Shown piece by piece: positions 18,152-33,438 of a stretch of 35,132 bases of DNA (within the stretch, counting starts at the first letter, position 1; the number at the start of each line of letters is the position of its first letter). The stretch is from Bacteroidales bacterium (GTDB lineage: Bacteria > Bacteroidota > Bacteroidia > Bacteroidales > UBA932). The translations under genes were made by a program, and so were the position numbers. The notes beneath the pieces were generated by a model. It saw nothing but the letters and a program-made list of their open reading frames with translations, made no database searches and was not told the origin of the DNA. Location of the stretch: positions 1-35,132 of the forward strand of contig JAFZWD010000019.1 in assembly GCA_017617495.1 (NCBI GenBank). The letters are read 5' to 3'.

Positions 18152-19893
18152 TCCGCCAGGACGCTCATTTCGCAGGCCTTGCAGTCGAACTGCAGCGCAA
18201 GGCGGCGGCCGTTGTTAATCAGGAACAGCTCGCCCGTGGGCTTGGCGCCCTGATGCTTCGGGCAGAGGTTAAGTTCGTATTTTATGCAATATTTGCTTCG
18301 CAAGAGATTGCCGGTCGCTGCCGGCAATGACGGTGGAACGGTCGGCACCGCCTCCGTCATGCCCGACCTGATCGGGCATCTCTGCATCGGCACGATGCCG
18401 CAAGGCATCCGGTCCAGGTCCTCAGCCAACAAACGTCTCATACTGTTGATGGTGGAGGCGCTGAGCAGCGGCAGGGATGCGCCGGCGGTGATGTCGCCGA
18501 CGCGGAAGCTGTAATGCAGGGCGCGCTTGCCGAGCTGCTCGCGGAGCATCGCCTCGGCGCGCTCGCGGTTCTCGGCCTTCTCGACATCGGCCTTGTAGCT
18601 GCTGGAGAGCGTCCTGCCGTCCTCGGTGGTGGCCTCCAGCACTATGGTGAACGCCCCGGAGATGCGTACGTTCAGCTCGACTGATATCTCGCGGCGGCAG
18701 GCGTTGCGCTCGAGCTCCCGTTCGAAAGCCGCGTTCACGTTGCGGTAGAGAGTCATTCCCTCGCGAAGCTCCGGCACATCCTTGCAGCAGATTTCGCTGC
18801 CGCTGGCGGTATCGGCCCGGAAGCCTACTATCGCGTTGCCGCTCACGAAAGCAAAACCGTCGCCGTTATTGAACTGCGCTCCGCCCTTCACGCGCACGGT
18901 CATGGTCTTGCCGCCGCGCCTGACGCTTGCGACAGTGCCGACGCATTCGCCCATCGACTTGGGAGCGTCCATCGAGGACCACTTACCGCGCTTGCCGTCG
19001 AAGAACAGCGAAGTGTAGCCGCGGGTGAAGGTCTTGTCGGCGTCGGGCTTGAACCCTCCGCTCACGCGGCCGAAGGACCCGCGGCACCAGCGTTCAGGTG
19101 CCGCGCCCACCAGCGCGTCAAGCGCCTTGCTGTAAAGCCTGGTTATATTGCGGACGTAGGAAATGTTCTTGAGGCGGCCTTCTATCTTAAAGGAACAGAC
19201 ACCCGCCGAGGCCAGTTCTTCCAGGCGGTCGTGCAGGTCGAAATCGCGCAGCGACAGAAGGGCTTTGCCGCGCACCAGGGTGCGGCCGTTCCCGTCTACC
19301 AGGTCGTACAGCGAACGGCACGCCTGCACACACTCTCCGCGGTCGGCGCTGCGCCCGTTGAGGTATTCCGACAGACGGCACTCCCCGCTGTATCCCACGC
19401 AGAGCGCACCGTGCACGAAGCATTCGACCTCGCAGCTCACGGCGTTGCAAATCTGCTTTATCTGTTCCAGGCTGAGTTCCCTTTCGAGCACTATGCGCGA
19501 GCAACCGGCGGCCTCGTACCGGCGCGCGGACTCCACGTCGCGGATGGCGCACTGGGTGGATGCGTGGAGCGGCACAGTAATGTCGTCCCAGCCGCAGATG
19601 CGCATGTCGCGGATGATGAACGCGTCGGCGCCAGCCTTCTGGGCATCCAGCATAAAGGCATGCACCGCAGGCAGTTCGTCGTCGCGCAGAATTATGTTTA
19701 CGGTAACGAAAATGCGCGCTCCGAAGCGGTGGGCGTAGTCGCAAAGCCTCGCGATATCCTCTACGCTGTTGCCCGCATCCTTGCGCGCCCCGAACGCCGG
19801 CCCCGCGATATATACGGCATCGGCACCGCAGTCAATTGCAGCGATGCCGATGTCAGCGTTCCTGGCGGGAGCCAGAAGTTCGAGATACCCCAT
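18148..19893 (-). CDS. U32-family peptidase-like protein (RlhA/YdcP type) with in-frame palindromic insert
   Basis: The 581-aa protein belongs to the U32 family, whose members hydroxylate RNA (RlhA acts on 23S rRNA, TrhP on tRNA) or were described as collagenases. It shows LELLAPARNADIGIAAIDCGADAVYIAG, a TIM-barrel N-terminus, the Cys-containing segments CFVHGALCVGYSGECRLSEY and RGECVQACR, and FKIEGRLK. The C-terminal KYCIKYELNLCPKH and FDCKACEM complete the conserved cysteines. Residues about 504-530 (near RCPIRSGMTE), just before KYCIKYEL, are foreign to the family and lie on a palindromic repeat. The start ATG immediately follows the TPR stop (TAAATG). RNA hydroxylation is the favoured role, by family only. 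Confidence 0.9.
   Translation of the reverse strand: MGYLELLAPARNADIGIAAIDCGADAVYIAGPAFGARKDAGNSVEDIARLCDYAHRFGARIFVTVNIILRDDELPAVHAFMLDAQKAGADAFIIRDMRICGWDDITVPLHASTQCAIRDVESARRYEAAGCSRIVLERELSLEQIKQICNAVSCEVECFVHGALCVGYSGECRLSEYLNGRSADRGECVQACRSLYDLVDGNGRTLVRGKALLSLRDFDLHDRLEELASAGVCSFKIEGRLKNISYVRNITRLYSKALDALVGAAPERWCRGSFGRVSGGFKPDADKTFTRGYTSLFFDGKRGKWSSMDAPKSMGECVGTVASVRRGGKTMTVRVKGGAQFNNGDGFAFVSGNAIVGFRADTASGSEICCKDVPELREGMTLYRNVNAAFERELERNACRREISVELNVRISGAFTIVLEATTEDGRTLSSSYKADVEKAENRERAEAMLREQLGKRALHYSFRVGDITAGASLPLLSASTINSMRRLLAEDLDRMPCGIVPMQRCPIRSGMTEAVPTVPPSLPAATGNLLRSKYCIKYELNLCPKHQGAKPTGELFLINNGRRLALQFDCKACEMSVLAD
18304..18382. repeat. In-frame palindromic element (type 1) inside the U32 gene
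   Basis: Two perfect 8-bp hairpins bound the element: ATTGCCGG/CCGGCAAT at 18307-18328 (loop TCGCTG) and ATGCCCGA/TCGGGCAT at 18359-18379 (loop CCTGA). Between them GACGG/CCGTC and CGGTG/CACCG form a third dyad. The 27 bases 18355-18381 recur exactly at 33412-33438. On the gene strand the element is read with codon boundaries AGA-TGC-CCG, giving RCPIRSGMTE and onward. Confidence 0.85.
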
Positions 19894-20832
19894 TTACTTG
19901 AGGTTCTTCAGGAGTTCCTGGGCCTGCACACCGAATTTCGGGTCGCCCACGGCCTTCTGGTAGTATTCCTTTGCCTTGGCGTTGTTGCCCTGCTTCTGGT
20001 AGATTGCACCTACGGTGAAGGCAATCTGTCCGGCGTTGCCGGCGGTAGGAGCAAGCTCGAGGTACTTGTCGAAGTACTGGATTGCGTCGGCGTTCTTGCC
20101 CTGGATCTGGCTGGCCTGTCCTGCAATCTGGTATGCCTTGGCGTTCTCGAGATACTCGTTGGACTTGAGGGCGTTGGCAACTGCGTCGGCAGGCTTCTTG
20201 GCCTTGAGTTCAGCGGCGGCTTCCTTAAGGTAGAAGGTGCTGAGCTGCTTGTTGGCGGCCTTCTCCTGTCCGTTCTCGACAGCCTTCAGGAAAGCGTCTA
20301 CCGCACCCTCCTTGTCGCCGGCGGCGTTGAGGGCCGAACCGAGACGCAGGTATGCGAGTCCGTTGGCGGGAGTTTCGGCCACAACTGCCTTGTAGGCCTC
20401 GGCTGCGCTGCCGAAGTCCTTGGCCTGAAGGAGAGCGTTGCCCTTCTGCATAAGAACCTGAGGGATCAGGTCCTTGGCCTCGGTGGCAGTGGTTTCGTCC
20501 TTGAAGGCCTTTGCGGTCTCGATGGTCTTCTGGAGTTCGGCAACCGCGTTGTCGTAATCGGCTGCGTTAACGAAGTCCTTCGCAATCGAGAACTGCACTA
20601 TGGGGATGTGCTCGTTGCACTTCTCTTCGATGTCTTTTGCCTGGGCATTGTCGGGCAGCGCCTTTGCAAGCTCGAGGGCCTGCTGGAAGAAGGAGATTGC
20701 CTCGGATTTCTGGCCAAGCGAGAGGGCGGTGGCCCCATTGTTGTAAGTTTCGGTAAGAACCTTAACGTCCTGTGCGGAAACCATCGCGGCTGCGATGATT
20801 GCGGCAAAGACTGTCAGCATAAGTTTTTTCAT
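19894..20832 (-). CDS. Secreted tetratricopeptide-repeat protein
   Basis: The 312-aa protein has a cleavable signal peptide (MKKLMLTVFAA...MVSA followed by QDVK) and several TPR units made of paired helices, for example ALSLGQKSEAISFFQQALEL, ANGLAYLRLGSALNAAGDKE, SNEYLENAKAYQIAGQASQI and AFTVGAIYQKQGNNAKAKEY. Such proteins are periplasmic scaffolds. It is first in a two-gene unit with the U32 gene, which starts at the next base after its stop. The partner is unknown. It is Ala-rich with no catalytic motif. Confidence 0.88.
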   Translation of the reverse strand: MKKLMLTVFAAIIAAAMVSAQDVKVLTETYNNGATALSLGQKSEAISFFQQALELAKALPDNAQAKDIEEKCNEHIPIVQFSIAKDFVNAADYDNAVAELQKTIETAKAFKDETTATEAKDLIPQVLMQKGNALLQAKDFGSAAEAYKAVVAETPANGLAYLRLGSALNAAGDKEGAVDAFLKAVENGQEKAANKQLSTFYLKEAAAELKAKKPADAVANALKSNEYLENAKAYQIAGQASQIQGKNADAIQYFDKYLELAPTAGNAGQIAFTVGAIYQKQGNNAKAKEYYQKAVGDPKFGVQAQELLKNLK

Positions 20833-20865
20833 CTTTCAGAGTTTTTACTTAAACAATACGAGTGG

Positions 20866-20873
20866 CAAAAATA
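20866..20873 (-). promoter_or_regulatory. -7 box of the TPR-U32 unit
   Basis: Minus-strand TATTTTTG matches the consensus exactly, 33 nt before the ATG at 20832; TTGC lies about 20 nt upstream. It is 13 nt from the opposing box at 20887. Confidence 0.7.
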
Positions 20874-20886
20874 GCAATTTTTATTG

Positions 20887-20894
20887 TAATTTTG
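20887..20894 (+). promoter_or_regulatory. -7 box of the M16-like gene
   Basis: TAATTTTG matches the consensus exactly, 14 nt before ATG 20909. Confidence 0.7.
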
Positions 20895-20908
20895 CAACCC
20901 AAGGTATT

Positions 20909-23494
20909 ATGAAGCGCGATTCGATAAAATATTTCCTCGTTTTTCTGCTGTCCTTCGTGGCTCTGCAGGTCTTCGCGCAAGGGCTTCCGACTCTGAAAAG
21001 GGCACCCGAAATCAATGCCGGGAAGCTTCCGGACGGCATATCATATTACCTTGTCACCAACTCTTCTTCCAAAGGGTATGCCAATTTTGCTCTGGTGCAG
21101 AAAGGCGCCCTCTCCCCGTCGGTGGCCGCACGCAACCTGGCGAGCCTCCCGCACTTCCCCGGAAAGGCCCCCTATAAGTTCCTGGCATCCAAGGGAATAG
21201 GCTATACCCGCGACGGTTATGCGGTGTGCCGCGACGGCGCCACCATATACAGTTTCGAGAACGTGCCGACCTTCGATGCGCACGCCCTCGATTCCACGCT
21301 CCTGCTCATCTTCGACATCGCTTCGACCTACGACTCCGAGCAGGCGATAATAGTGAGCGGCGAGTACAACCTCGCGGTGATGAAGGACCGCCTCCACATG
21401 CTTTCGCTCAACATCCCCGCCGTGCGGAAGATGCGTCAGCCCTACGGCTACGAGTGGAAGCCTTCGGAGGAGCCTGTGCTGGTGCAGACCGCCAACGGAT
21501 GCCGCAATGCAGCCACCCTTACGGTGGATTACTCCGCCCCGCGCACCCCTCTGGCCAGGATGAACACCCCGCAGGTGCTGGTGACGGACATCTTCGCCCA
21601 GGAAATGGGCTACCTGCTGTGCAAGCGCGTGCAGAGGGGCTTCCTGATGGCGGGCATCCCCCTCGCGGACGTCAGCTACAAGTATCTCGACAGTTCGCTT
21701 TCCGACTCGGACGAGCATCACCTGCTGAGCATTGTCACGGACGCATCGCAGCTGCTGGAGGCCAACGGCAAGCTGGCGGAAATCCTGGCGGACATCGACA
21801 CCCACGGGCCGGCGGCGGACGAGTTCAAGGACGCCAAGGACCGTATCATGACGGAGGCGGGAGTGCAGGCGCGGCGCATCGACGTCAGCAACAGGGAATA
21901 CGTGCGCAGATGCATCTCCTCGTATCTGCTCGGGTCCAACCTCGCAAGCTATTCCTCCGTCGGCGACTTCCTCATCGGCCGCAAGATCGCTCCCGAACGC
22001 GAGCTTGCGCTCTTCAACAGCTTCGCTTCGGCGGTGCTGGACCCGCGCAGGGCCCTTACGCTCAGGCTGGAAACCCCTTCGGGGGATGTCTCCGGCGTGC
22101 TTGAGGCCTTCGACAGCGCATGGCGGGCGGCAGCGGCCAGGCCCCGGGAGGATGTCTCCTACCATGTGCATTATGCCGATACGCTCACGCTCCTTCGCCC
22201 CCGTGGACACAAGGTCAAGATAACTTCCACCTCCAGGGAGCCCGTCACCGGCGGCAGCGTCTGGAGCTTCTCCAACGGCATGAAGGTAATCTTCAAGAAG
22301 GCCGGCAGCAAGGGCGAATTCCACTATGCGCTGATGCTCAAGGGCGGTTGCGCCGACGTGCCGGACCTCTCCTACGGCGAAAGCGCGTTCGTGGAGGATA
22401 TGCTCCGCCTCTACAATATCGGCGGGATGAATTATCTGGATTTCCGCAACATGCTGGAGGCCAACGGGGTGATTTTCGATCCTGCGGTGAGCCTTACCGA
22501 CATGCGCATTTCCGGGCGAGCCCCTGTGGAGAAGATTCACCTGCTGTTCAAGGCGCTGGTTTCGCTGATGCGCGACCGCAGCGTCAATCCTTCGGCGATT
22601 TCTTACTACCGCACGGGCGAGGCGCTCCGCCAGGAGTGCGGGAGGTTTGCGCCCGAGGCGATGCAGGCGGTGATGGACAGCATTATGTGCCCCGGCTATC
22701 TCTATCCCGAGACCAAGAACGTGGCCTATCTGCGCGACGACCTGCCGCAGCGGGTAGAGCAGTATGTGGCCAGGCAGTTCTCCAAGGCTAACGACGGAGT
22801 GCTGGTGATAGTAGGGCAGTTCGACGAACTTGAGCTCCAGAAGATCCTGACGCGCTACCTTGGCGCCTTCATGACTTCGGACGCCTTCGCGGTGAGGCCC
22901 AAGGTCAAGTATGTGCCCGGTTCCGGCACTTCCACTTGTTTTGTGGACGCTCCCGGCGGCAACAGTGAGCTGTGCGAGGTAAACGTGTCGCTGGCGGCCC
23001 TGAGACCCTATACCATGGATTCGTACATAGCGTTCCGGGCGGCCGTGGCGGCAATCCGTAAGGAGGTGATCGCCCATATGGCGGATATCGGAATGGAGGC
23101 CGAGGTGAGGCCTTCGATGCAGCTCTTCCCGGAGAACCGGATGGGGGTGTACATAAGGTGCAAGGCATGCAATTCCGACGGGCTTCCTGACGGAGTGGCT
23201 CCCGCCGACCCGTATTCCGGCCTGGCCGCGGTGCGCAATGCGCTTGCAGCGGTGTCGTCGCGCAGCATCAGTTCCACCGACCTTGCAGGCTATAAACAGA
23301 TGGTCTCGGACGAAATCGTTACCGAGAACAAGATTCCCTCGAATATGATAAGGTCGGTGCTGGTACGCAATTCGGAGGGTAAGGATTTCGTGTCCAACTA
23401 TAAGGAGCACGTTTCGTTCGTCACGGCAGCGGACGTCATGGAAATAATCAAGGCGCTCTGTTCCGGAAGCAGGGTGGAATATGTAGTCAAATAG
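20909..23494 (+). CDS. Secreted M16 peptidase-like protein lacking zinc motifs
   Basis: The 861-aa protein has a signal peptide ending VFAQ and two M16 (insulinase-like) halves, each opening with a typical strand: GKLPDGISYYLVTNSSSKGYANFALVQKG and, near residue 450, WSFSNGMKVIFKKAGSKGEFHYALMLKGG. Active M16 enzymes have HxxEH soon after this strand. Here the first half reads NLASLPHFPGKAPYKFLASKG and the second AFVEDMLRLYNIGGMNYLDF, so neither has the zinc ligands. It is most likely an inactive M16 homologue acting as a binding or chaperone subunit in the periplasm. The start ATG 20909 follows the -7 box by 14 nt. It is coupled to DUF3109 by TAGTG. Confidence 0.87.
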   Translation: MKRDSIKYFLVFLLSFVALQVFAQGLPTLKRAPEINAGKLPDGISYYLVTNSSSKGYANFALVQKGALSPSVAARNLASLPHFPGKAPYKFLASKGIGYTRDGYAVCRDGATIYSFENVPTFDAHALDSTLLLIFDIASTYDSEQAIIVSGEYNLAVMKDRLHMLSLNIPAVRKMRQPYGYEWKPSEEPVLVQTANGCRNAATLTVDYSAPRTPLARMNTPQVLVTDIFAQEMGYLLCKRVQRGFLMAGIPLADVSYKYLDSSLSDSDEHHLLSIVTDASQLLEANGKLAEILADIDTHGPAADEFKDAKDRIMTEAGVQARRIDVSNREYVRRCISSYLLGSNLASYSSVGDFLIGRKIAPERELALFNSFASAVLDPRRALTLRLETPSGDVSGVLEAFDSAWRAAAARPREDVSYHVHYADTLTLLRPRGHKVKITSTSREPVTGGSVWSFSNGMKVIFKKAGSKGEFHYALMLKGGCADVPDLSYGESAFVEDMLRLYNIGGMNYLDFRNMLEANGVIFDPAVSLTDMRISGRAPVEKIHLLFKALVSLMRDRSVNPSAISYYRTGEALRQECGRFAPEAMQAVMDSIMCPGYLYPETKNVAYLRDDLPQRVEQYVARQFSKANDGVLVIVGQFDELELQKILTRYLGAFMTSDAFAVRPKVKYVPGSGTSTCFVDAPGGNSELCEVNVSLAALRPYTMDSYIAFRAAVAAIRKEVIAHMADIGMEAEVRPSMQLFPENRMGVYIRCKACNSDGLPDGVAPADPYSGLAAVRNALAAVSSRSISSTDLAGYKQMVSDEIVTENKIPSNMIRSVLVRNSEGKDFVSNYKEHVSFVTAADVMEIIKALCSGSRVEYVVK

Positions 23495-24069
23495 TGCCCG
23501 GGGAATTCGGAACCATAATCGAGATTGACGGCATCCTCGTGAGCGAGGATGTGGTGTGCGAGTATTTTGCCTGCGACTACCCCGTGTGCAAGGGTGCCTG
23601 CTGCGTTGTGGGCGACAGCGGGGCTCCGCTCGACGAGTCCGAGCTCGAGGGCTTGGAGCGCGATTACCCCAAGTACTGCGGCCTGATGTCCGAAGATGGC
23701 AGGCGCGCAATCGATGCAAAGGGCTTTTTCGAGATCGACCGCGAAGGCGACCTGGTTACCACTCTGGTGCCCGGTTCTGAAGCCTGCGCCTACTGTGCCC
23801 ACGAGGGGGATTCGCTGCTCTGCGCCATCGAGAAGGCGGGCTGCACCAAGCCCGTTTCGTGTTCGCTCTATCCTATCCGCGTGACGCGCCTTACCGGCGG
23901 GGGCCTCGCGCTCAATCTGCACCGCTGGCATATCTGCGGCCCTGCCTTCGAGAAGGGCCGCCGTGAGGGTATCCGCGTCTATCAGTTCCTGCGCGGTCCC
24001 CTCACCTCCCGCTTCGGCCCCGACTTCTACGAAGCCCTCGACGCTGCCGCGCAGCATCTAGGCTGTTAG
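23494..24069 (+). CDS. DUF3109 family cysteine-rich protein
   Basis: The 191-aa protein matches the Bacteroidota DUF3109 family: IEIDGILVSEDVVCEYFACDYPVCKGACCVVGDSGAPLDESE at the N-terminus, then ACAYCAHEGDSLLCAIEKAGC, CSLYPIRV and LNLHRWHICGPA. About a dozen Cys residues, in CxxxxCC and CxxC-like spacings, point to metal or Fe-S binding; the family is related to the YkgJ-type CxxCxxCC proteins. It starts at GTG 23494, sharing a base with the M16-like stop codon. Its function is not known. Its stop codon lies in one arm of a 10-bp inverted repeat. Confidence 0.88.
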   Translation: MPGEFGTIIEIDGILVSEDVVCEYFACDYPVCKGACCVVGDSGAPLDESELEGLERDYPKYCGLMSEDGRRAIDAKGFFEIDREGDLVTTLVPGSEACAYCAHEGDSLLCAIEKAGCTKPVSCSLYPIRVTRLTGGGLALNLHRWHICGPAFEKGRREGIRVYQFLRGPLTSRFGPDFYEALDAAAQHLGC

Positions 24070-24108
24070 CGCCCTTCCGCTCTGACCGCCCTCGCCCCGG
24101 GCGCTAAC
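24065..24108. terminator. 10-bp inverted repeat between convergent DUF3109 and hemW, possible bidirectional terminator
   Basis: GTTAGCGCCC at 24065-24074 and GGGCGCTAAC at 24099-24108 form a perfect 10-bp stem with a 24-nt pyrimidine-rich loop. The left arm contains the DUF3109 TAG and the right arm overlaps the hemW stop codon. There is no T tract on either side, so intrinsic termination is uncertain. Confidence 0.45.
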
Positions 24109-25127
24109 TATATCAAGCCGCTAATAATATCGTCGGCGACGAACCAGTCGCCTTCGGGGATGGCGAGGTGCCGTCCGTCGATGTCGACGCCCTCGCGGGT
24201 ACGGAGGCCGAGCATAATGGTCTCCTCGCGGATTTCTTCGGGGGTCAGGAGTTCGCCGTCCCGCGTCCAGCCGCTCTGCACCTGGCTGTTCCAGCTGCGG
24301 TAATCGGGGTTCAGCGAAAGCGAATGCGCCCCGGGTCCCAGGCCCACGTAGGGCCGCCTGGTCCAGTAGGCCGAATTGTGCACGCTGCGCTTGCCGGGGA
24401 GCGCCCAGTTGGAGATTTCGTAGTGCTCGTAGCCGGCATCCGCAAGCATGCGGCAGACCATCTCGTATTGCGCCCGGCACTGTTCCTCGGGGAGTTCCTG
24501 TTCCTGCCCGGATGCAATCAGGTCGGCAAGGTAGCTGCCTTCCTCGATGCTGAGCTGGTAGGCGGAAATATGGTCGGGATGCCAGGATATAATCTCCTCC
24601 AGGGTTTCTTGCAGCACATCGTCGCTCATGCCGGGGACACCGGTAATTATATCCACGCTCACATCGAATACCCCTTCGCGAAGCATTGCGTAGGCCTTTC
24701 TTGCCTCCTCGGCATCGTGCCTGCGGTTCATCCAGCGCAGGATACGGTCGTTCAGGCTCTGCACCCCCATGCTGATGCGCGTCACCCCCAGACGGTTAAG
24801 AGTCTGCAACCATTCCTGGCCGTTCCCGACAACATCGTCCGGGTTCACTTCGAGGGTAAACTCTTCGTACGGCCCGTAGGGGAGCGCCTTGACAATGCGC
24901 TCCAGGAAATCGGAAGGCATAAGGCTGGGCGTACCCCCTCCTATATATAAAGTATTGAGTCCGAGAGTGGCTTTTATCTCGTCGCGTCGGCTTTCGATTT
25001 CGGCGCAGAGTTCATCGGCGTAGCGCCCGAAGACGGCCTCGGCATCCTGTCCGCAGCCGACGGCTTCGGAATAGAAACTACAGTATGTGCAGAAACTCCC
25101 GCAGAAGGGGACGTGGACGTAAATCAT
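24108..25127 (-). CDS. hemW: Radical SAM heme chaperone HemW (coproporphyrinogen III oxidase-like), short C-terminus
   Basis: The 339-aa protein has the radical SAM cluster motif CGSFCTYCSF (Cys9, Cys13, Cys16), then GGGTPSLMP, FTLEVNPDDV, RISMGVQSLNDRILRWMNRRH, DIITGVPG and HISAYQLSIEEG, and HNSAYWTRRPYVGLGPGAHS. The Cys pattern fits HemW (heme insertion chaperone) rather than true HemN. HemW proteins are usually 370-390 aa; here the segment between MLGLRTREGVD and the final EGDWFVADDI is about 30-40 residues shorter. The start shares one base with the coiled-coil gene stop (TGATG), so the two are cotranscribed. Confidence 0.9.
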   Translation of the reverse strand: MIYVHVPFCGSFCTYCSFYSEAVGCGQDAEAVFGRYADELCAEIESRRDEIKATLGLNTLYIGGGTPSLMPSDFLERIVKALPYGPYEEFTLEVNPDDVVGNGQEWLQTLNRLGVTRISMGVQSLNDRILRWMNRRHDAEEARKAYAMLREGVFDVSVDIITGVPGMSDDVLQETLEEIISWHPDHISAYQLSIEEGSYLADLIASGQEQELPEEQCRAQYEMVCRMLADAGYEHYEISNWALPGKRSVHNSAYWTRRPYVGLGPGAHSLSLNPDYRSWNSQVQSGWTRDGELLTPEEIREETIMLGLRTREGVDIDGRHLAIPEGDWFVADDIISGLI

Positions 25128-26041: not shown

Positions 26042-26058
26042 AGTATCAGTTATTTCTC

Positions 26059-26066
26059 CAAATATA
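26059..26066 (-). promoter_or_regulatory. -7 box of the coiled-coil/hemW unit
   Basis: Minus-strand TATATTTG matches the consensus, 17 nt before ATG 26041. Confidence 0.65.
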
Positions 26067-26070
26067 GAAA

Positions 26071-26088
26071 TAATTTTGTGTATATTTG
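26071..26088 (+). promoter_or_regulatory. Two tandem -7 boxes before the small membrane protein gene
   Basis: TAATTTTG at 26071-26078 and TATATTTG at 26081-26088 both match the consensus; the second ends 22 nt before ATG 26111 and is the likelier one in use. Confidence 0.6.
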
Positions 26089-26110
26089 ACCTCGAAAATC
26101 ATTCTGAGCC

Positions 26111-26584
26111 ATGAAATACATAGTAAGAGTCATAAAATATTTCGTATATCTCACCGTCATTCTGGCGCTGTTCATCGCCGTGCTGATGGCTTTCCACCTT
26201 GTCGGCAACACCGTCGACGAAATCTTCAAGAACGGGGCCCGTTCGCTCTGGCAGGTCGCCGGCATCGTGGCGGTTTTCGCCGCGGTTTATCCGATGCTCG
26301 GCTTCACGCGCCGCAGCGCGACTGTTCCGGGAGATTACCCCGCGCTCAGGCAGGGCATAGTGGACGTGATGCACGACCGCGGATATGTGCTCGAAAGCGA
26401 GAAGGCCGATGTCCCCGGCGAGGAGCGCCTGACCTTCCGCAAACGCTCGCCCCTCCTGCGCCTCACCCGCATGTTCGAGGACCGCATCACCATGACAAAG
26501 GACTTCGGAGGCTTCTCCCTCGAAGGTCCCTCCAAGGATCTGGTTCGCGTAATCGGTGCCCTGGAATACAAATTCCGCAATTAA
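26111..26584 (+). CDS. Small membrane protein, hypothetical
   Basis: The 157-aa protein has two predicted transmembrane helices (about 7-32, YFVYLTVILALFIAVLMAFHLV, and about 46-66, LWQVAGIVAVFAAVYPMLGF) and a soluble C-terminal domain of about 85 residues with ALRQGIVDVMHDRGYVLESEKADVP and EDRITMTKDFGGFSLEGPSKDLVRVIGALEYKFRN. This layout matches a conserved Bacteroidales membrane protein of unknown function; the C-terminal domain looks like an alpha-beta fold facing the cytoplasm. Its TAA interlocks with the stop codon of the convergent aminopeptidase gene. Confidence 0.82.
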   Translation: MKYIVRVIKYFVYLTVILALFIAVLMAFHLVGNTVDEIFKNGARSLWQVAGIVAVFAAVYPMLGFTRRSATVPGDYPALRQGIVDVMHDRGYVLESEKADVPGEERLTFRKRSPLLRLTRMFEDRITMTKDFGGFSLEGPSKDLVRVIGALEYKFRN

Positions 26585-28377
26585 GCCGCCAGCGTTTTCT
26601 GGCGCAGCCAGGCGGCGACCTCAGGCGGCAGAAGATCCTTCAGCTGCTGATACACAGATTCGTTATAACTGTTCAGCCAGGCGAGCTCGTCGGGCGTGAG
26701 CAGTTCCGTGTGAAGGATGGAGGTGTCGTAGTGGCAGAGGGTGAGAGGCTCGAAGCGAAGCCAACGGCCGAACTCGTTCTCGCCGGCAGGCACGCACAGC
26801 AGCAGATTCTCGTGGCGAACGCCGTGCTGGCCCTCACGGTAGATCCCCGGCTCGTCCGACACGATCATTCCGGCCATCAGCGGCTGGGGGTTGAGGTTCT
26901 GGCGGATGTCCTGCGGCCCTTCGTGCACGCCCAGGAAACTCCCCACTCCGTGGCCCGTGCCGTGCCCGAAATTGCGCTGATGTTCCCAGAGCGGTTCGCG
27001 GGCAAGCGCGTCGATCCGGCAACCGGGAGTGCCTTCGGGGAAGACTGCCCTCGCCAGGGCGATGTGGCCCTTGAGCACCAGGGTGTAGTCCTCAGCCTCG
27101 AGCTCGCTGCAAGGGCCAAGGGGTATTGTGCGGGTGATGTCAGTAGTGCCGGGGGTGTTATACTGCCCTCCGCTGTCGCAGAGATAGAGCCCGTGCGGTT
27201 CCAGCACCGGAGCGTTCGAGCGGGGGGTGATATAATGCGGGAGTGCCGCGCCGGGGCCATAGGCCGAGATGGTCTCGAAACTGTCGCCAAGGTACTCGGA
27301 GGCCTCCTCGCGGTAGCGACCAAGCTGCACTGCTGCATCCCATTCGTTCACCGTGCGGTCATTGTCCAGCGATTTCTCCAGCCACCAGAGATACTTTTCC
27401 ATTGCAACGCCGTCAAGCAGATGCGCGCGGCGGGCCCCCTCGATTTCGACGGGATTCTTTACCGCCTTCCAGAGAGCGACGGGTGAGGGGCTGTCCACCA
27501 GGCGGCCGGGGCCTGCCAGCGAGCAGAGATGATAATTCAGCACGCCGGAATCTGCCAGCAGACTGCCGTCGAGCTCGCTCAAGGCGATTTCAATCTCCTC
27601 GTAATAACGAAGGTTAATGCCATCCTCGCGAAGCGCTGCAAAAGCGGCCTCGGTCTGGGGATCCTCGACGGGCTCCTTGAGCACGAACCAGTCGGCAGTT
27701 TCGGCGCCGACCAGCAGCCAGGATATGACGAGCGGGTTGTATTCTATGTCGGAAGCACGCACATTGAGTGTCCAGGCAACCTCGTCCAGCGAGCCCAGCA
27801 GAATGTAGTCGCAGCCCTTTTCGGCCAGATGGTCACGCAGCCGGCCGAGCTTGCTGATGCGGCTTTCGCCGGGGGACACTTCAAAGATAGGAGTCTGGGG
27901 TACCTGGGGGCGGTCCGTCCAGAGCGCGTCCAGCAGGTTGGGCATACTTACGGTATGGCAGGCCGTGCCGAGCGCATTGAGCCCGCCCTTGATTTCCGCC
28001 ACGGTGGCGGCGCCTATGCAGAGACCGTCCACGGCAATGTAGACTTCGGCCGAACCGTCGAATTTGCCGGCAATCCATTCGGGAATGGGAACCTGCTCGG
28101 GAACTCGCATCTTGTGAAGCTCCACTCCGGTGCCGTCCAGTTGCTGAACGGCCTGGATAAAGTAACGGGTATCGGTCCAGAGTCCCGCGTGGTCGAGGGT
28201 GACGACCACGTCGCCGGCCTCGCCGGTAAAACCCGTGAGCCATTCCACCTGCTTCCAGCGCCCGGCTGGATATTCGCTGCCGTGAGGGTCGCCGCCGGTG
28301 AGCACCACAGCGTCCCAGCCGTGGCTCCGCATCATTGTGCGAAGCGCTTCGATTCTGCCTGCAAAAACATTGTCCAT
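26581..28377 (-). CDS. Xaa-Pro aminopeptidase (M24B, three-domain aminopeptidase P)
   Basis: The 598-aa enzyme removes N-terminal residues next to proline. It has the long three-domain layout seen in eukaryotic XPNPEP1: two creatinase-like N-terminal domains (about 1-300) and a C-terminal pita-bread domain. Dinuclear metal ligands are visible: Asp in LYLCDSGGQY, Asp in GTTDITRTI, His in HGTGHGVGSFLGVHEGP, Glu in VSDEPGIYREG and Glu in GVRHENLLL. The transcript starts almost at the ATG: a perfect -7 box ends 5 nt upstream. It is a single-gene unit, cytoplasmic, with no signal peptide. Confidence 0.95.
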   Translation of the reverse strand: MDNVFAGRIEALRTMMRSHGWDAVVLTGGDPHGSEYPAGRWKQVEWLTGFTGEAGDVVVTLDHAGLWTDTRYFIQAVQQLDGTGVELHKMRVPEQVPIPEWIAGKFDGSAEVYIAVDGLCIGAATVAEIKGGLNALGTACHTVSMPNLLDALWTDRPQVPQTPIFEVSPGESRISKLGRLRDHLAEKGCDYILLGSLDEVAWTLNVRASDIEYNPLVISWLLVGAETADWFVLKEPVEDPQTEAAFAALREDGINLRYYEEIEIALSELDGSLLADSGVLNYHLCSLAGPGRLVDSPSPVALWKAVKNPVEIEGARRAHLLDGVAMEKYLWWLEKSLDNDRTVNEWDAAVQLGRYREEASEYLGDSFETISAYGPGAALPHYITPRSNAPVLEPHGLYLCDSGGQYNTPGTTDITRTIPLGPCSELEAEDYTLVLKGHIALARAVFPEGTPGCRIDALAREPLWEHQRNFGHGTGHGVGSFLGVHEGPQDIRQNLNPQPLMAGMIVSDEPGIYREGQHGVRHENLLLCVPAGENEFGRWLRFEPLTLCHYDTSILHTELLTPDELAWLNSYNESVYQQLKDLLPPEVAAWLRQKTLAA

Positions 28378-28382
28378 TTCTA

Positions 28383-28390
28383 CAAAGATA
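28383..28390 (-). promoter_or_regulatory. -7 box of the aminopeptidase P gene
   Basis: Minus-strand TATCTTTG ends 5 nt before ATG 28377, implying a leaderless or near-leaderless mRNA. Confidence 0.7.
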
Positions 28391-28422
28391 GTAATTTTTC
28401 CGTTTTTGTTAACTTATTATCC

Positions 28423-28499
28423 ATCAACTACTTATACAAAATCGATGCTCCAAAATGGAGCATCGATTTTCAGGAAATGACTATAAATCAACAACTTAT
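28423..28499. repeat. 15-bp perfect palindrome flanked by direct repeats in the divergent pepP/dus region
   Basis: Arms AAAATCGATGCTCCA (28438-28452) and TGGAGCATCGATTTT (28456-28470) are perfectly complementary with a 3-nt AAA loop. On either side lie 13-bp near-identical direct repeats, ATCAACTACTTAT at 28423-28435 and ATCAACAACTTAT at 28487-28499. The 157-nt region between the two start codons holds these and two promoters and nothing else I can see. The stem has A4 and T4 ends, like a bidirectional terminator, but both neighbouring genes point away from it. Confidence 0.85.
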
Positions 28500-28519
28500 G
28501 AAAAACGCTAAAAACTTAC

Positions 28520-28527
28520 TATCTTTG
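28520..28527 (+). promoter_or_regulatory. -7 box of dus
   Basis: TATCTTTG ends 7 nt before ATG 28535, giving a very short leader. Confidence 0.7.
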
Positions 28528-28534
28528 CGACACC

Positions 28535-29533
28535 ATGAAAATCGGAAATCTGGATCTGGGCGAGAGGCCGCTGCTGCTGGCGCCGATGGAGGATGTGACG
28601 GACCGTTCGTTCCGTATTCTCTGCCGCGAGCAGGGGGCGGACATGGTCTACACCGAGTTCGTGCCGTCCGACGGGCTGGTTCGCGACGCGGCCAAGGCGC
28701 TCGACAAGATGCGCACTCTTCCCGAAGAAGCCCCTGTGGGCATCCAGATTTACGGTCATATCCCCGAGGCGATGGTGGATGCCGCGCGTATGGCGGACAA
28801 GGCGCAGGAGCTGGTCGGAGGCCATGGGGCCGATGTCATCGACATAAATTTCGGCTGCCCGGTGAGCAAGATTGCGGGGCGAGGCGCAGGCAGCGGAATG
28901 ATGCGCGAGCCCGACAAAATGGTGGCCATCACAAAGGCCATCGTGGAGGCCGTTCCGGACAAGCCGGTAACTGTCAAGACCCGCCTCGGCTGGGACGAAT
29001 CTTCCAAAATCATCGTTGAACTCGCCGAACGGCTGCAGGACGCCGGCATCAAGGCTCTCACCATCCACGGTCGCACGCGCTGCCAGATGTATAAAGGCAG
29101 CGCCGACTGGACTCTCATCGGCGAGGTCAAGCGCAATCCGCGCATGCACATCCCCATCATCGGCAACGGCGACATCACCGACGGACCGTCGGCAAAAAGG
29201 GCCTTCGCCGACTACGGGGTGGATGGCATAATGATAGCCCGCGCAAGTTTCGGGCACCCCTGGATCTTCAAGGAAATCAAGCATTATCTTGCCCATGGCG
29301 AGCAGATGCCCCCGCTGAGCGTGGCGGAGAAGGTGGCTCTCGCCAAGAGGCATCTAACCCTGTCGCTCGCCGAGAAAGGCGAGCACCGCGGCGTATACGA
29401 AATGCGCCGCCATCTGAGCTGCTATTTCAAGGGACTGCCGGAGTTCAAGGAGACCCGCATCCGCATGGTTACCACGCTGGACGTCGCGGAGCTCTACAGC
29501 ATTCTGGATTCAATTGCCGAGCGCTGGGCCTAG
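28535..29533 (+). CDS. dusB: tRNA-dihydrouridine synthase (DusB-type)
   Basis: The 332-aa flavoenzyme reduces specific uridines in the tRNA D-loop. Signatures are LLLAPMEDVTDRSFR (13-27), the catalytic Cys108 in DINFGCPVSKIAGRGAGSGMM, VTVKTRLGWDE, ALTIHGRTRCQMYKGSADW and the FMN phosphate site IIGNGDI plus DGIMIARASFGHPWIF. The C-terminal helical tRNA-binding domain is complete. Exact position specificity (DusB against another Dus) is inferred from overall length and motifs. It ends interlocked (CTAG) with the stop of the convergent Big2 gene. Confidence 0.93.
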   Translation: MKIGNLDLGERPLLLAPMEDVTDRSFRILCREQGADMVYTEFVPSDGLVRDAAKALDKMRTLPEEAPVGIQIYGHIPEAMVDAARMADKAQELVGGHGADVIDINFGCPVSKIAGRGAGSGMMREPDKMVAITKAIVEAVPDKPVTVKTRLGWDESSKIIVELAERLQDAGIKALTIHGRTRCQMYKGSADWTLIGEVKRNPRMHIPIIGNGDITDGPSAKRAFADYGVDGIMIARASFGHPWIFKEIKHYLAHGEQMPPLSVAEKVALAKRHLTLSLAEKGEHRGVYEMRRHLSCYFKGLPEFKETRIRMVTTLDVAELYSILDSIAERWA

Positions 29534-31710
29534 TAGTACAGTATCGGCAGAACGTAGTAGCCCGTGGAGTTGGTTTTGGCGTCGAACTTCATCTGGGCCT
29601 GGCCGCTGTCGGGGGCGATGAAGGCAAGGCCGTTATTGGTGTCGTACTGTTGTGCGCACCAGAGCCAGTGGGAATAATCCAGGGTTTCGCCGCTGAATTT
29701 TTTTGCCGCCTTCTTGAAGGTGGCGAGCCTGTTCTGCGTTTCGGTTTTAAGGGCCGGGGCAGTCACAATCACGAGGAAGTGCAGAGTTGAACTGATTTCC
29801 TGTTCAAACTCATTGTAGCCGGGCATCCTTCCGCAGAAAATCGAGAACAGGTCGGCCCTGGTGGGCATGAGCCAGTAGGACGCCAGCCTGGTGGGGAATG
29901 TGTTGGGTGCGGTGGCGTTGAGCTCGGTGGAGGTGGTAAGGCCGTAGTACCATCCCGAACCGCTGGAACTGGGCGTGCTGCGGTAGTCGCAGTAGAAGTT
30001 TGGCATTATCTGGTAGCGCCAGTTGTTACCGGCCCTGGCATCGTTCCATGCCCGGAGTTCCACGCCGTTGGAATAGGCGGTGTGCTTGTCGTTTGCGTAC
30101 TTGAGCAGGTCGCTCTGCGCGCCGATGTCGGAAACGTTGAGGCTGAACGGCATGCCTCCGGTATGGTTGGTGCCGCCGCCCGATGCATAGATGTACGATG
30201 CATTTACCGGGATGGCGATGCCGTGCCGGAACTCGTCGGGAGCCTGATAGACGCCGTCCCACATAGCCGCGCCCTGGAAGTTGTGGGTGCCCGTATCCTC
30301 CTGGTACCACTCGCTGCCAACGTGCCCGATCATAGCGATAACACTGTTATTGTAGGTGCTGGCCGAGACGGAATTCTCCCAGATGTCGGCTCCGCGCCAG
30401 CCGGAATCCTGGTTGCGCAGGCGATTGCTTCCCGCGATAGTTGCGTAGTAGAGGCCGTCGCCCGGTTTTGGCAGATAGGGGTCGTACTCCGAGATGTAGA
30501 AATTAACCGTATGCTCGACTCCTCCGGCGAGGAACCTCACCACTGCGCCCACCTTGTCGGACGCCGTACTGGTGGAAATGCCGGTTTTGGCAGTTACGGT
30601 GAGCGTATTGTTTTCGAATTTGCAGTTGAGCGTGCTTGACCAGCTCTGCAGGTTCAGTTTCTGGCTTGCCGTGTTAGGCAGGGCGCTCACGGAGTAAACC
30701 TGCGTGGCTCCCACACCGATATATTCCGAAGGTCTGGTGGCCCCGTCCTTCACCGCAGTAGTTGTCTTGGTTGCGGAAATCGTCAGCTGGAGGCCGGTCA
30801 CGGCGTTGTAGGGCTGAATCTGGATTATCTGCTCTTCCGCATTTTTGGTCTCGCATCCCACATAAATCTTAACGAGTGAAGAAGAATACTTGACGGCCTC
30901 AATCACTCCGTCCTCGCTCACCCGTACACAGTCGGGAGCGCTGCTGCGGAAGGTGAGTTTATCGCCGGCGGTAGCCGGAAGGGTAGTCGCACGAACCTTA
31001 ATGGTCTGCCCCGGGCTGAGCTCGTAATAACCGCCGTTCTTCGCCTGATATCCCTCGGTGTTCTTATTGGGCCAGTCGATGCTGATGGAAGTGAACGGTT
31101 CCACGACCTTCACTGTCACAGAAGCCGAAATAGTTTTGTTCTCCTGGCTCGTAGCGGTAACGGTGACGGTGCCGTTCTTGATGCCCGTAACCACGCCCGA
31201 CTCGTTCACCGTGGCGATACTTTCGTTGCTGGAATGCCAGCTGACCTTGCGCTGCGTAGTGCCGGAGGGAGTGTAAACCAGGCTCAGCAGGGTGGTCGAC
31301 CCGGCATTCACCAGATATTCGTCCTTTGCAAACGACAGCCCTGTAATGGGAACCGGCGTCAGCACCACCTGCACCTCGCAGGTAGCGTAATGCTCCGGAT
31401 TCGAGTCGGACTCGGCTTTAATGTATGTGGTGCCGGTACTCTTGCCGGTCACCACGCCGTTCTCGTCCACCGTGGCCGCCGCCTTGTTGGTCGAGCTCCA
31501 ATTAACCTTTTTATTATATGCGTTGTTCGGAGTAACCTTCGCGACAAGCTGCTCGCTGTCGTCTTTTATCAGCACCATACTGTCGGTGTTGAGGCTGATG
31601 CCGGTCACCTTTATATATTTGGTGCCCTTGCTGTCGATTTCCTTCTTGCAGGAAACGGCGGTGAAGCACAGCAGAGCTGCAGCAATCGCCAGGATACTCT
31701 TAGTGCGCAT
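29530..31710 (-). CDS. Surface lipoprotein with bacterial Ig-like (Big2) domains
   Basis: The 726-aa protein starts with a lipoprotein signal (CFTAVSC then KKE). Two clear Big2 domains follow (about 35-117 and 118-203), each with the W-S-S-x-N/D...A-T-V-x-x-x-G-V-V-T-G pattern (VNWSSTNKAAATVDENGVVTG and VSWHSSNESIATVNESGVVTG), then a diverged third (about 204-295, LTFRSSAPDCVRVSEDGVIEAV). The remaining 400 residues have no domain I recognise; they are Asn, Ser, Tyr and Gly rich (GDGLYYATIAGSNRLRNQDSGWRG) and suggest an adhesin or glycan-facing surface module. The start is ATG 31710; GTG 31716, overlapping the lpxK stop as GTGA, is an alternative. It is last in the pyrH-frr-lpxK run. Confidence 0.88.
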   Translation of the reverse strand: MRTKSILAIAAALLCFTAVSCKKEIDSKGTKYIKVTGISLNTDSMVLIKDDSEQLVAKVTPNNAYNKKVNWSSTNKAAATVDENGVVTGKSTGTTYIKAESDSNPEHYATCEVQVVLTPVPITGLSFAKDEYLVNAGSTTLLSLVYTPSGTTQRKVSWHSSNESIATVNESGVVTGIKNGTVTVTATSQENKTISASVTVKVVEPFTSISIDWPNKNTEGYQAKNGGYYELSPGQTIKVRATTLPATAGDKLTFRSSAPDCVRVSEDGVIEAVKYSSSLVKIYVGCETKNAEEQIIQIQPYNAVTGLQLTISATKTTTAVKDGATRPSEYIGVGATQVYSVSALPNTASQKLNLQSWSSTLNCKFENNTLTVTAKTGISTSTASDKVGAVVRFLAGGVEHTVNFYISEYDPYLPKPGDGLYYATIAGSNRLRNQDSGWRGADIWENSVSASTYNNSVIAMIGHVGSEWYQEDTGTHNFQGAAMWDGVYQAPDEFRHGIAIPVNASYIYASGGGTNHTGGMPFSLNVSDIGAQSDLLKYANDKHTAYSNGVELRAWNDARAGNNWRYQIMPNFYCDYRSTPSSSGSGWYYGLTTSTELNATAPNTFPTRLASYWLMPTRADLFSIFCGRMPGYNEFEQEISSTLHFLVIVTAPALKTETQNRLATFKKAAKKFSGETLDYSHWLWCAQQYDTNNGLAFIAPDSGQAQMKFDAKTNSTGYYVLPILYY

Positions 31711-31712
31711 AT

Positions 31713-32813
31713 TCACAGTTTTATAAGGTTAAACAGTTTGGTTTCGAACAGTTTGCGGTCCTCCTCCAGGAGAAATTCTGCCCGGATGGGGAATTCCACC
31801 AGGCGTTCGCGCAGGCCGGCGGGCAGGTCCCTGCAGTCGCGGATGCGCTGGGCGTCCTTCTCCGTAGTGGCCACGACAGCATCCGGATGCCTGCGGGCAG
31901 CCTCTGCAATGCGCGCGATATCCCCTGCGCCGTAGGCGTGATGATCGGCAAAGCGCAGATGTTCCACCACCCGTCCGCTTTCGGCCAGATGCTCTGCCAG
32001 CGGCCCGTCGCCCGCGATACCGGTAAACAGCACAAACTCCTTCCCTTCGAACGGGCGTGCCTTCCCCTCGGCATACACGGGCCTCGGGGTGTCGTAGGCG
32101 ATGCGCGTAAACAACACCGGGAGCTCCTTCTGCGAGCCTTCGGGAAGATACTTACGCGCTTTCGCGCTGATAGCCTCGCGCTCTTCCTGCCCCAGGTCTG
32201 CAGGGCATTTTGTGATGATGACGATGTCGGCGTCGGCCAGGCGCTCCGGCAGGTCGCGCAGCCTCCCGAACGGCAGCAGACAGTCTTTCCAGACGGGGCG
32301 GTTGTAGTCCACCAGCACTATGTTGAGGCAGGCGCGGAGTTTATTGTACTGGAAGGCGTCGTCCAATACTATAATGCCGGGAGATTGCCGATCAAGATAC
32401 CCCACAAATTTGCAATTTGCGGGGGCCCCATATGGTCGGCAATGACGCCCGTCACTCCCGGCTTGACCGGGAGTCTCGGCTGCAAGCCGTGTGCAGCCCT
32501 CGACGCGGTCCTTGTCGACGGCGACAAGGACCTCCGGGAACTTACGCTTGATCTGCAGCGGTTCGTCGCCGGCGAACGCGGCATCCGAGTCCGGTTCCAC
32601 ATACTGGAAACCATTGCTCTTGCGCTTGTATCCGCGCGAAAGCACCGCCGCCTGCACACCTGCAGGCAGCATTCGCAGTATCATTTCGGTATGCGGGGTC
32701 TTGCCAGTACCCCCCACGGTTACATTCCCCACGCAGACCGTAGGGACATCCGCGCCCGGAGCACTTTGCCACTTCCTCGCGCGGTGACGGAGTATGGCTT
32801 TGTATATAAGCAA
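31713..32813 (-). CDS. lpxK: Tetraacyldisaccharide 4'-kinase with in-frame palindromic insert
   Basis: The 366-aa inner-membrane enzyme phosphorylates lipid A precursor at the 4' position. The P-loop GNVTVGGTGKTP (29-40), LSRGYKRKSNGF (58-69), GDEPLQIKRKFPEVLVAVDKDRVEGC (82-107) and VLDDAFQYNKL (149-159) are family-typical, with FTGIAGDGPLAEHL and FADHHAYGAGDI further on. Residues about 113-145 (ETPGQAGSDGRHC to DRQSPG), directly before the conserved LDDAFQ, are not found in the family and coincide with a palindromic element. The start is TTG 32813, 1 nt after the frr stop; no in-frame ATG lies ahead of the P-loop, and the N-terminus LIYKAILRHRARKW is a plausible, short membrane-associating helix. 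Confidence 0.92.
   Translation of the reverse strand: MLIYKAILRHRARKWQSAPGADVPTVCVGNVTVGGTGKTPHTEMILRMLPAGVQAAVLSRGYKRKSNGFQYVEPDSDAAFAGDEPLQIKRKFPEVLVAVDKDRVEGCTRLAAETPGQAGSDGRHCRPYGAPANCKFVGYLDRQSPGIIVLDDAFQYNKLRACLNIVLVDYNRPVWKDCLLPFGRLRDLPERLADADIVIITKCPADLGQEEREAISAKARKYLPEGSQKELPVLFTRIAYDTPRPVYAEGKARPFEGKEFVLFTGIAGDGPLAEHLAESGRVVEHLRFADHHAYGAGDIARIAEAARRHPDAVVATTEKDAQRIRDCRDLPAGLRERLVEFPIRAEFLLEEDRKLFETKLFNLIKL
32379..32477. repeat. In-frame palindromic element (type 1) inside lpxK
   Basis: Three dyads: ATTGCCGA (32384-32391) pairs with TCGGCAAT (32436-32443); inside that loop CCCACAAATT (32401-32410) pairs with AATTTGCGGG (32414-32423) with one mismatch; and ACTCCCGG/CCGGGAGT (32454-32474) closes around CTTGA. 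The layout and the GGCAATGACG...GTCA spacer match the U32 element, but the reading phase differs by one base (GAG-ACT-CCC here against AGA-TGC-CCG there). Confidence 0.82.
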
Positions 32814-32814
32814 A

Positions 32815-33384
32815 TTAAACCGTGAGGATTTCTTTTTCCTTGGCGGCCACGATGTCGTCCACCGACTTCACGTTCTTGTCGGTAATCTTCTGCACCTCGC
32901 CTTCGCCTTCCTTCTCGGTGTCCTCGCTCATGCCCTCGTTCTTCTGGGCTTTCTTGAGCAGGTCGATCGCGTCGCGGCGGGCGTTGCGGATGACTATCTT
33001 GGCATTTTCGCCGGCTTCCTTGGCCTTCTTCACAAGGTCGCGGCGGCGCTCCTCGGTAAGGGCGGGCACCGTGCAGCGGATAACTTCGCCGTTGTTGGAA
33101 GGGGTAAGTCCGATGTTGGCGTCGAGGATGGCCTTTTCTATCTGCGGGATAAGGCTCTTGTCCCAGGGCTGGATGGCCAGCGTCTTGGCATCGGGGGCGG
33201 TGACGGACGACATCTGCGCAAGCGGGGTGGGCGCTCCGTAGTAATTGACTATCACGCTGTTGAACACCGACGGATTGGCCTTGCCGAGGCGGTAGTTCTT
33301 AAGATCCTCTTCGAGGTAGAGAACGGCTTCCTGCATCTTCTCGTCTGCGCCGTTCAGGATTTCTTTCGCTCTGTCTGTTAACAT
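32815..33384 (-). CDS. frr: Ribosome recycling factor
   Basis: The 189-aa protein splits post-termination ribosomes with EF-G. It has the family hallmarks AVLYLEEDLKNYRLGKANPSVFNSVIVNYYGAPTPLAQMSSV, PWDKSLIPQIEKAILDANIGLTPSNNGEVIRCTVPALTEERRRDLVKKAK and KNVKSVDDIVAAKEKEIL, and a length close to the usual 185. It follows pyrH after 52 nt, which contain a palindromic repeat but no TAnnTTTG box, so it is probably read from the pyrH promoter. Confidence 0.97.
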   Translation of the reverse strand: MLTDRAKEILNGADEKMQEAVLYLEEDLKNYRLGKANPSVFNSVIVNYYGAPTPLAQMSSVTAPDAKTLAIQPWDKSLIPQIEKAILDANIGLTPSNNGEVIRCTVPALTEERRRDLVKKAKEAGENAKIVIRNARRDAIDLLKKAQKNEGMSEDTEKEGEGEVQKITDKNVKSVDDIVAAKEKEILTV

Positions 33385-33411
33385 ATCTTATTCCTTATAA
33401 TTCTAAGAATA

Positions 33412-33438
33412 CGTCATGCCCGACCTGATCGGGCATCT
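33412..33438. repeat. Intergenic copy of the type 1 palindrome between pyrH and frr
   Basis: ATGCCCGA/TCGGGCAT at 33416-33436 with loop CCTGA is a perfect 8-bp hairpin. All 27 bases of this interval are identical to 18355-18381 in the U32 gene. Its edge supplies two of the three bases of the pyrH stop codon (33437-33439). Confidence 0.9.

Follow-up and report, generated by a model that had tools for sequence, protein, structure and literature searches.

A short DNA hairpin with an unpaired CGTC at one end is present in many copies in the genome of a Bacteroidales bacterium, and most of these copies lie within protein-coding genes whose open reading frames run through them. The hairpin was recognized in a stretch of 35,132 nucleotides (nt), contig JAFZWD010000019.1 of assembly GCA_017617495.1, hereafter the window, which is contig C50 of a draft genome (G000) of 1,510,885 bases in 61 contigs, 74.3% complete. 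A covariance search of this genome returned 112 copies, 85 of them wholly within genes, which bears out the original prediction, made from the window, of a protein-invading palindromic repeat acting genome-wide. These copies are read here, with a probability of about 0.84, as CGTC-tagged repetitive extragenic palindromes (REPs), non-autonomous elements that have multiplied in one Bacteroidales genus, in as well as between genes, and whose genic copies are kept where frame and site are permissive.

According to this reading, short hairpins with CGTC at one end, a stem of 8 base pairs (bp) and a loop of 5 or 6 nt would multiply in the genomes of the genus, and a copy in a gene would survive provided that it keeps the frame and that its peptide comes to lie in a loop, linker or terminus where the protein tolerates additions. 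From such survival it would follow that 27-nt hairpins and dimers accumulate in genes, and that single 26-nt hairpins make up most of the intergenic copies. The positions of the copies would then be shaped by purifying selection, and not by targeting.

To see the element in its simplest setting, consider first the window, where the covariance model finds five CGTC units at three places. Their E values range between 8.7e-7 and 4e-12, and the model also lists, as a sixth row, the last unit read in reverse (E = 0.29). The exact 27-mer CGTCATGCCCGACCTGATCGGGCATCT occurs twice, at 18355-18381 and at 33412-33438, where 0 occurrences are expected from 100 shuffles, and a loose 15-mer pattern is by itself non-significant, with five matches against 2.49 by chance and at least five in 12 of 100 shuffles. 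The first place is a U32 peptidase gene with a DUF3656 domain (18148..19893, minus strand), which contains an in-frame head-to-head hairpin dimer at 18305-18381. Its left half is a 27-nt unit (18305..18331, minus strand; 30.7 bits, E = 2.5e-7) and its right half a 26-nt unit (18356..18381, plus strand; 45.9 bits) with the CGTC tag from 18355, and the residues encoded by the hairpins, about 505-530, lie C-terminal of the DUF3656 match (382-494). The second place is lpxK, assigned by the Pfam family LpxK (31713..32813, minus strand), which starts at 32732 according to the gene caller or at 32813 as the longest open reading frame, and which carries a second head-to-head dimer at 32382-32476. One half of this dimer (32382..32446, minus strand), recognized by the covariance model, has its loop enlarged by about 38 nt through another palindrome, CCCCACAAATTTGCAATTTGCGGGG, nested in it, which is single in the fetched DNA of the genome; the other half (32451..32476, plus strand), recognized by both pattern and model, has the different stem CTCCCGG/CCGGGAG. 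The third place is the gap between frr and pyrH, where a unit at 33413..33438 (plus strand) overlaps with its last two bases the stop codon (33437-33439) of a pyrH-like gene that ends in the hairpin (33437..34162, minus strand; Pfam amino acid kinase, probably pyrH). Inserts are thus present in two of the 27 called genes of the window, the U32 peptidase gene and lpxK, fewer than the four of 30 genes first claimed, and the fifth unit is the one in the frr-pyrH gap. Three other perfect hairpins within window genes (15774-15802, 19080-19105 and 32507-32532) were rejected as copies of a repeat, each being single when up to three mismatches were allowed across 60 fetched stretches of the same genome.

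A stricter pattern, allowing at most three mismatches, matched 58 sites in the genome and 0 in a reversed control, and the covariance model was built from 28 distinct variants selected by this pattern among the 58 sites. With the model, 150 of 1,865 first-look candidates were scored and 112 copies passed the threshold of E <= 0.05, the least significant of them with E = 0.003; because the model derives from the same genome, the stronger scores are so partly by construction. The 28 variants are paired in 99.6% of 224 stem cells and show double-sided stem changes in 39 cells, values that were each reached in 0 of 500 shuffles, and the number of stem pairs with a compensatory change, which is five, was equalled in 49 of 500. 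The tag is CGTC in 103 of the 112 copies, TGTC in seven and another sequence in two; the 8-bp stem opens with the two pairs AT/AT in 98 copies, and the 3-nt tail is CTC in 67, CCC in 23 and CCA in one. Sixty-five copies are 26 nt long with a 5-nt loop and 45 are 27 nt long with a 6-nt loop, the remaining two having lengths of 25 and 65 nt. When two copies lie close together, their orientation is nearly always head-to-head (19 of 21 close pairs), and all 19 such pairs are heterodimers in the sense that their stems differ by at least one base.

The location of the copies was determined from genes called by codon usage in the 60 fetched stretches around copies outside the window, where the coding density is 0.89, and only copies traversed by an open frame were labelled coding. 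Besides the 85 copies wholly within genes, 22 are intergenic and five lie at a gene edge. This genic share is below that expected by chance at a coding density of 0.89 (binomial p = 1e-4), and it is far above expectation for repeats described as mostly intergenic. The decorated genes number 54 in the assembled part of the genome, perhaps 70-75 when scaled by completeness, so that the hundreds of affected proteins originally projected were too many. A Pfam scan of 52 of these genes (locus L048 and one gene of 96 residues were left out) gave a match at E <= 0.001 for 47 and a score above the family's own cut-off for 46, and the insert lies inside domain-matched residues in at least 22, as read from the Pfam tables. 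Among the decorated families are UvrA, UvrD, the SRP GTPase (FtsY), TruB, RNase H, the ATP synthase gamma and a chains, formyl transferase and GATase_5, and further decorated genes encode IleRS, LpxK and RdgB; from their Pfam families, others are probably RadA, MalY, ManC, TsaB, RsmE and PurL. Copies are unusually dense at loci L074 and L075 (contig C41), L065 (contig C29) and L042 (contig C7), and on contig C41 beta-ketoacyl synthase, LolA, MMPL, FabA-like and acyltransferase genes each have an insert.

An artefact of assembly or of gene calling could in principle produce such a picture, since the draft is fragmented, the gene caller is a simple one based on codon usage, and the coding label needs an open frame. 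This explanation is hardly credible, however, when further assemblies contain the family in different flanking sequence and when nearly all scanned decorated genes have a Pfam match. The original prediction had named a copy number near five, or a single recombination or assembly artefact, as what would overturn it; the genome has its 112 copies on many contigs, and of the 121 genus genomes 79 contain the family.

That the hairpins have been inserted into genes is indicated by comparison with relatives. Eleven chosen genes were compared with genomes G009, G033 and G128, all three outside the set of 79 repeat-positive genus genomes. Ten of the genes were aligned to a total of 29 relatives' rows; PurL, which had one match, was left out. 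The CGTC peptide is absent from all 29 of these rows, and G000 has clear extra length in seven of the ten genes: IleRS, MalY, RsmE, RdgB, TsaB, RadA and, at its site 1, ManC. The solved structures of RdgB (1k7k) and IleRS (8c8w) are likewise without the inserted segment, and so is that of LpxK (4ehx), in whose chain residues 81-112 of the present LpxK map to the interval from residue 123 to residue 127. In LpxK of G009, a longer and unrelated repeat of that genome's own stands at the same place as the G000 insert. The repeats concerned are HSREVA, present twice in RsmE of G128 (locus L237), and SGDARGR..PSPPLPP in LpxK of G009 (locus L245), in the same loops as the G000 inserts, and because the sister species hold these other, unrelated peptide repeats there, repeats of several families may tend to accumulate in these two loops.

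The absence of the inserts from the 29 rows bears also on the idea that the peptides are kept for a benefit to their proteins. Insert-carrying gene classes are shared with other species, in which UvrA, UvrD, TruB and a tRNA synthetase are named as carriers (PMC3733652), as a benefit would suggest; but the inserts use several reading frames and both strands, so that the encoded peptides are unrelated to each other, and together with their absence from relatives this makes a benefit very unlikely.

How the repeat is distributed was surveyed by scoring 63 candidates per genome, so that high counts are lower bounds, and at least ten copies were found in 39 of the 121 genus genomes. With 126 candidates scored, genome G019 has 119 copies and G003 has 105, and the copy number across the genus goes from 0 to over 100 per species, which is comparative evidence that the element is mobile. 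The genic share was estimated from the best-scoring copies, a part of each genome's set, and among these it is 12 of 20 in G000, 13 of 20 in G019 (11 of 18 distinct, two pairs sharing context), 6 of 18 in G104, 5 of 20 in G110, 1 of 2 in G132, and 2 of 15 in both G097 and G107. In a Bacteroidota sample, a match at E <= 1e-5 was present in 42 of 296 genomes, the own genome included. Among the best 80 of 231 FtsY relatives, all are assigned to Bacteroidales, Bacteroidia or families within, and the closest are rumen and gut draft genomes, UBA2861 being nearest with 86% and Candidatus Cryptobacteroides following with 72-76%; the host lineage is an uncultured Bacteroidales genus, probably in or near Cryptobacteroides. 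An alphaproteobacterial host, which the motif had at first suggested, was rejected on the basis of these FtsY relatives.

The lengths of the copies differ between coding and other locations. The 27-nt form makes up 42 of the 85 coding copies versus 3 of the 27 others (p = 2.9e-4), and when only unpaired copies are considered, i.e., those with no partner within 120 bases from start to start, the proportions are 28 of 45 versus 3 of 27 (p = 2e-5). Close pairs occur in genes only, accounting for 41 of 85 coding copies versus 0 of 27 others (p = 5e-7, by a gap measure that includes one copy more than the start-to-start distance). This pattern is a possible mark of selection for frame, because 27 nt corresponds to nine codons. 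The spans of the dimers are mostly 1 or 2 modulo 3, and the dimers would reach a multiple of three together with one or two flanking bases. An alternative is that this REP lineage has become adapted to proteins, its extra loop base giving nine codons and thus entry into a gene without frameshift, so that in some species of the genus most copies are now genic; this stronger interpretation of the same numbers is rather doubtful.

Several observations weigh against the account of genic copies as survivors of frame selection. The gene calls come from the simple caller of this analysis, and because the coding label demands an open frame, a gene broken by a copy is counted as non-coding, so that the length signature follows in part from the label itself. 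Of the 27 non-coding copies, seven lie in gaps of less than 130 nt between genes on the same strand, where both neighbours are known to be whole only for frr-pyrH; the remaining non-coding copies are in larger gaps, between genes on opposite strands, or have one side without a called neighbour. The 26-nt form, moreover, accounts for 42 of the 84 coding copies with a length of 26 or 27 nt, and 17 of those 42 are single. As regards insertion, the extra length is not clear in the aminotransferase, in TruB and at site 2 of ManC, where loop length varies anyway and an insertion is no more than possible, and the same is true of FtsY, which failed as a clean empty-site test because its insert sits in a linker that varies in length among the relatives aligned (28 of the best 80). 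Finally, the copies examined in G097, G107 and G110 are mostly intergenic. The reading in terms of REPs that multiply and are retained where they can be tolerated remains the one to which the probability above refers.

Under this reading an enzyme would move the repeats in the form of single-stranded hairpins, and a trans-acting Y1 (HUH) transposase is one candidate. The CGTC repeat has no visibly attached transposase gene, as foreseen, and the search for a Y1 transposase flanked by the same hairpins, which the original prediction had proposed, had a divided outcome: the genome contains four Y1_Tnp genes, and CGTC hairpins bracket none of them where flanks were read. Over the genus sample, with 85 Y1 matches in 27 of 37 genomes, CGTC hairpins replace the gene's own ends at 0 of the 72 Y1 loci examined, the Y1 family being the only one searched among transposases. 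The flanks of seven loci were read (L031-L034, L105, L106 and L111), and four of these loci (L033, L034, L105 and L106) are bordered on each side by hairpins of their own, unrelated to the CGTC repeat. To exemplify, the Y1 gene at L033 (contig C8) has the hairpin AAATCGATGCTCC-loop-GGAGCATCGATTT on both sides, at 816-848 and 2002-2030, and an intergenic member of this hairpin family, unrelated to the CGTC repeat and present at 11 sites in the genome, stands at 28439..28469 of the window. At L034 (contig C23) the Y1 gene lies between identical hairpin repeats with GGTGGGGACCTCGCCCACC, at 153-179 and 1660-1686, and GGCGAGGT sequences, which resemble GGTGGGGACCTCGCCCACC, stand near several intergenic CGTC hairpins.

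The CGTC repeats could be moved in trans by resident Y1 transposases of the RAYT/TIRYT type, which have unrelated hairpins at their own ends, and this is a possible, though not yet a probable, explanation. The covariation of the stem and the fixed tag would suit recognition of hairpin shape together with the tag by an enzyme, and Y1 genes are present in 69 of 79 repeat-positive versus 20 of 42 repeat-negative genomes (p = 6.6e-6; Spearman 0.35), an association that weakens when the threshold is raised to 10 copies (p = 0.026) or to 30 (p = 0.013) and that ignores relatedness and completeness in all three statistics. Five genomes with at least ten copies, however, have no Y1 match, one of them (G130) being 95% complete, and bracketing by CGTC hairpins is absent from the 72 loci. 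In the fetched flanks of seven of these (L033, L105, L106, L111, L250, L267 and L279) there is a CGTC match at E <= 0.01, in no case in place of the gene's own ends. Locus L105 was considered as a CGTC-bracketed Y1 gene, with a weak match on each side, but these matches lie outside the gene's own 38-nt hairpins and were taken as chance.

The mobiliser could instead come from another family, or have been lost in most genomes, as Di Nocera et al. proposed for CGTC REPs. In their paper, a dedicated transposase is described as lacking for CGTC repeats and the CGTC-flanked transposase genes as a few fortuitous cases (PMC3733652), and the 72 Y1 loci give the same result. The large differences in copy number among species of one genus suggest a fairly recent spread and count against this explanation, which is conceivable but falls short of likely. 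A spread with no transposase at all, through slippage during replication, switching between templates or gene conversion at the hairpins, is unlikely. Half-units such as TCGGCAATGACGG, in tandem and with short spacers, follow several intergenic copies (L084 from 298 onward, L077 from 2390 onward and L078 from 2501 onward) in a slippage-like manner, but slippage accounts for local tandem copies and not for more than 100 copies that are scattered through unrelated genes and share a conserved tag.

The genus, with more than 100 sequenced species, a varying copy number and a seemingly varying genic share, permits tests of which gene tracks the repeats, and also mapping of the insertion sites that proteins tolerate and of how a selfish hairpin becomes coding sequence. 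Rickettsia has provided the main examples of natural in-frame insertion of palindromes throughout a genome; the phenomenon is hereby extended to gut and rumen Bacteroidales, and it concerns a superfamily, the CGTC-tagged REPs, that spans several phyla.

It remains to compare the element with known systems. Di Nocera et al. (2013) characterise the CGTC-tagged REPs by the tag, by the stem with its loop and tail, and by dimers in head-to-head orientation, and list five phyla as hosts, Bacteroidetes included (PMC3733652). They have an unpaired CGTC (or TGTC, or CCTC) tag, a loop of 4-5 nt, with other lengths in few species, and a 3-nt tail that is mostly CCA; their dimers are mainly head-to-head, with heterodimers in CGTC-2, and REPs are mostly intergenic (PMC3733652). 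By stem and loop length CGTC-2 is nearest, the common features being the CGTC tag, an 8-bp stem starting A-T, the 5-nt loop of the 26-nt form and a short tail; heterodimers in head-to-head orientation, hosts among the Bacteroidetes and the lack of any transposase found attached are also shared with the superfamily. In contrast, the copies described here are mostly genic, the 27-nt form with a 6-nt loop is concentrated in genes, the tail is mostly CTC or CCC and not CCA, and there are no dimers among the 27 non-coding copies. In tag, stem and dimers the element thus fits the superfamily, from which it differs in tail, partly in loop, and in location.

Among the systems with transposases, REPs mobilised by RAYT have a GTAG tag and flank the RAYT genes, whereas here the tag is CGTC and the Y1 loci are not bracketed. 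Genes of the Bacteroidetes Y1 subclass 2.6 have atypical secondary structures at their flanks, and copies of these structures occur elsewhere (PMC6006769); the present Y1 genes may belong to this subclass. As for RAYT/TIRYT and this subclass, there are Y1 genes with flanking hairpins, one such hairpin family being represented in the window, but these hairpins are not CGTC. PARCEL is also coding palindromic DNA, although it consists of 25-residue tandem repeat domains of surface proteins (PMC2996958), as opposed to short inserts in housekeeping genes. Protein-coding palindromes are hosted as well by Wolbachia and by the archaeon Methanocaldococcus jannaschii (PMC2996958); by their descriptions these, the WPE of the Wolbachia of Brugia and RPE-1, which is longer, are set apart as other sequences (PMC3733652, PMC2996958), and the Wolbachia CGTC-4 units are described as unrelated to WPE (PMC3733652).

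Rickettsia and Wolbachia had at first been put forward as the known precedents, no description being known for the present lineage. Closer kin exist in the CGTC-tagged superfamily, which includes RPE-4 (CGTC-4) and RPE-6 (CGTC-1) of Rickettsia and has Bacteroidetes among its hosts (PMC3733652), and for the lineage itself no report of the element was found among the literature search results. R. conorii is the species richest in intragenic CGTC units, namely RPE-4 and RPE-6 (PMC3733652), and these resemble the present element in belonging to the same superfamily, in standing in frame in many unrelated genes, and in sometimes giving two inserts per gene. They differ in phylum and subfamily, and the host here is a gut or rumen Bacteroidales bacterium, not an obligate intracellular one. 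What is new, then, is the range within one Bacteroidales genus, from species with 0 copies to species with over 100, a mostly intragenic location in some of these species, and a concentration of 27-nt forms and head-to-head dimers in genes that may reflect selection for frame.

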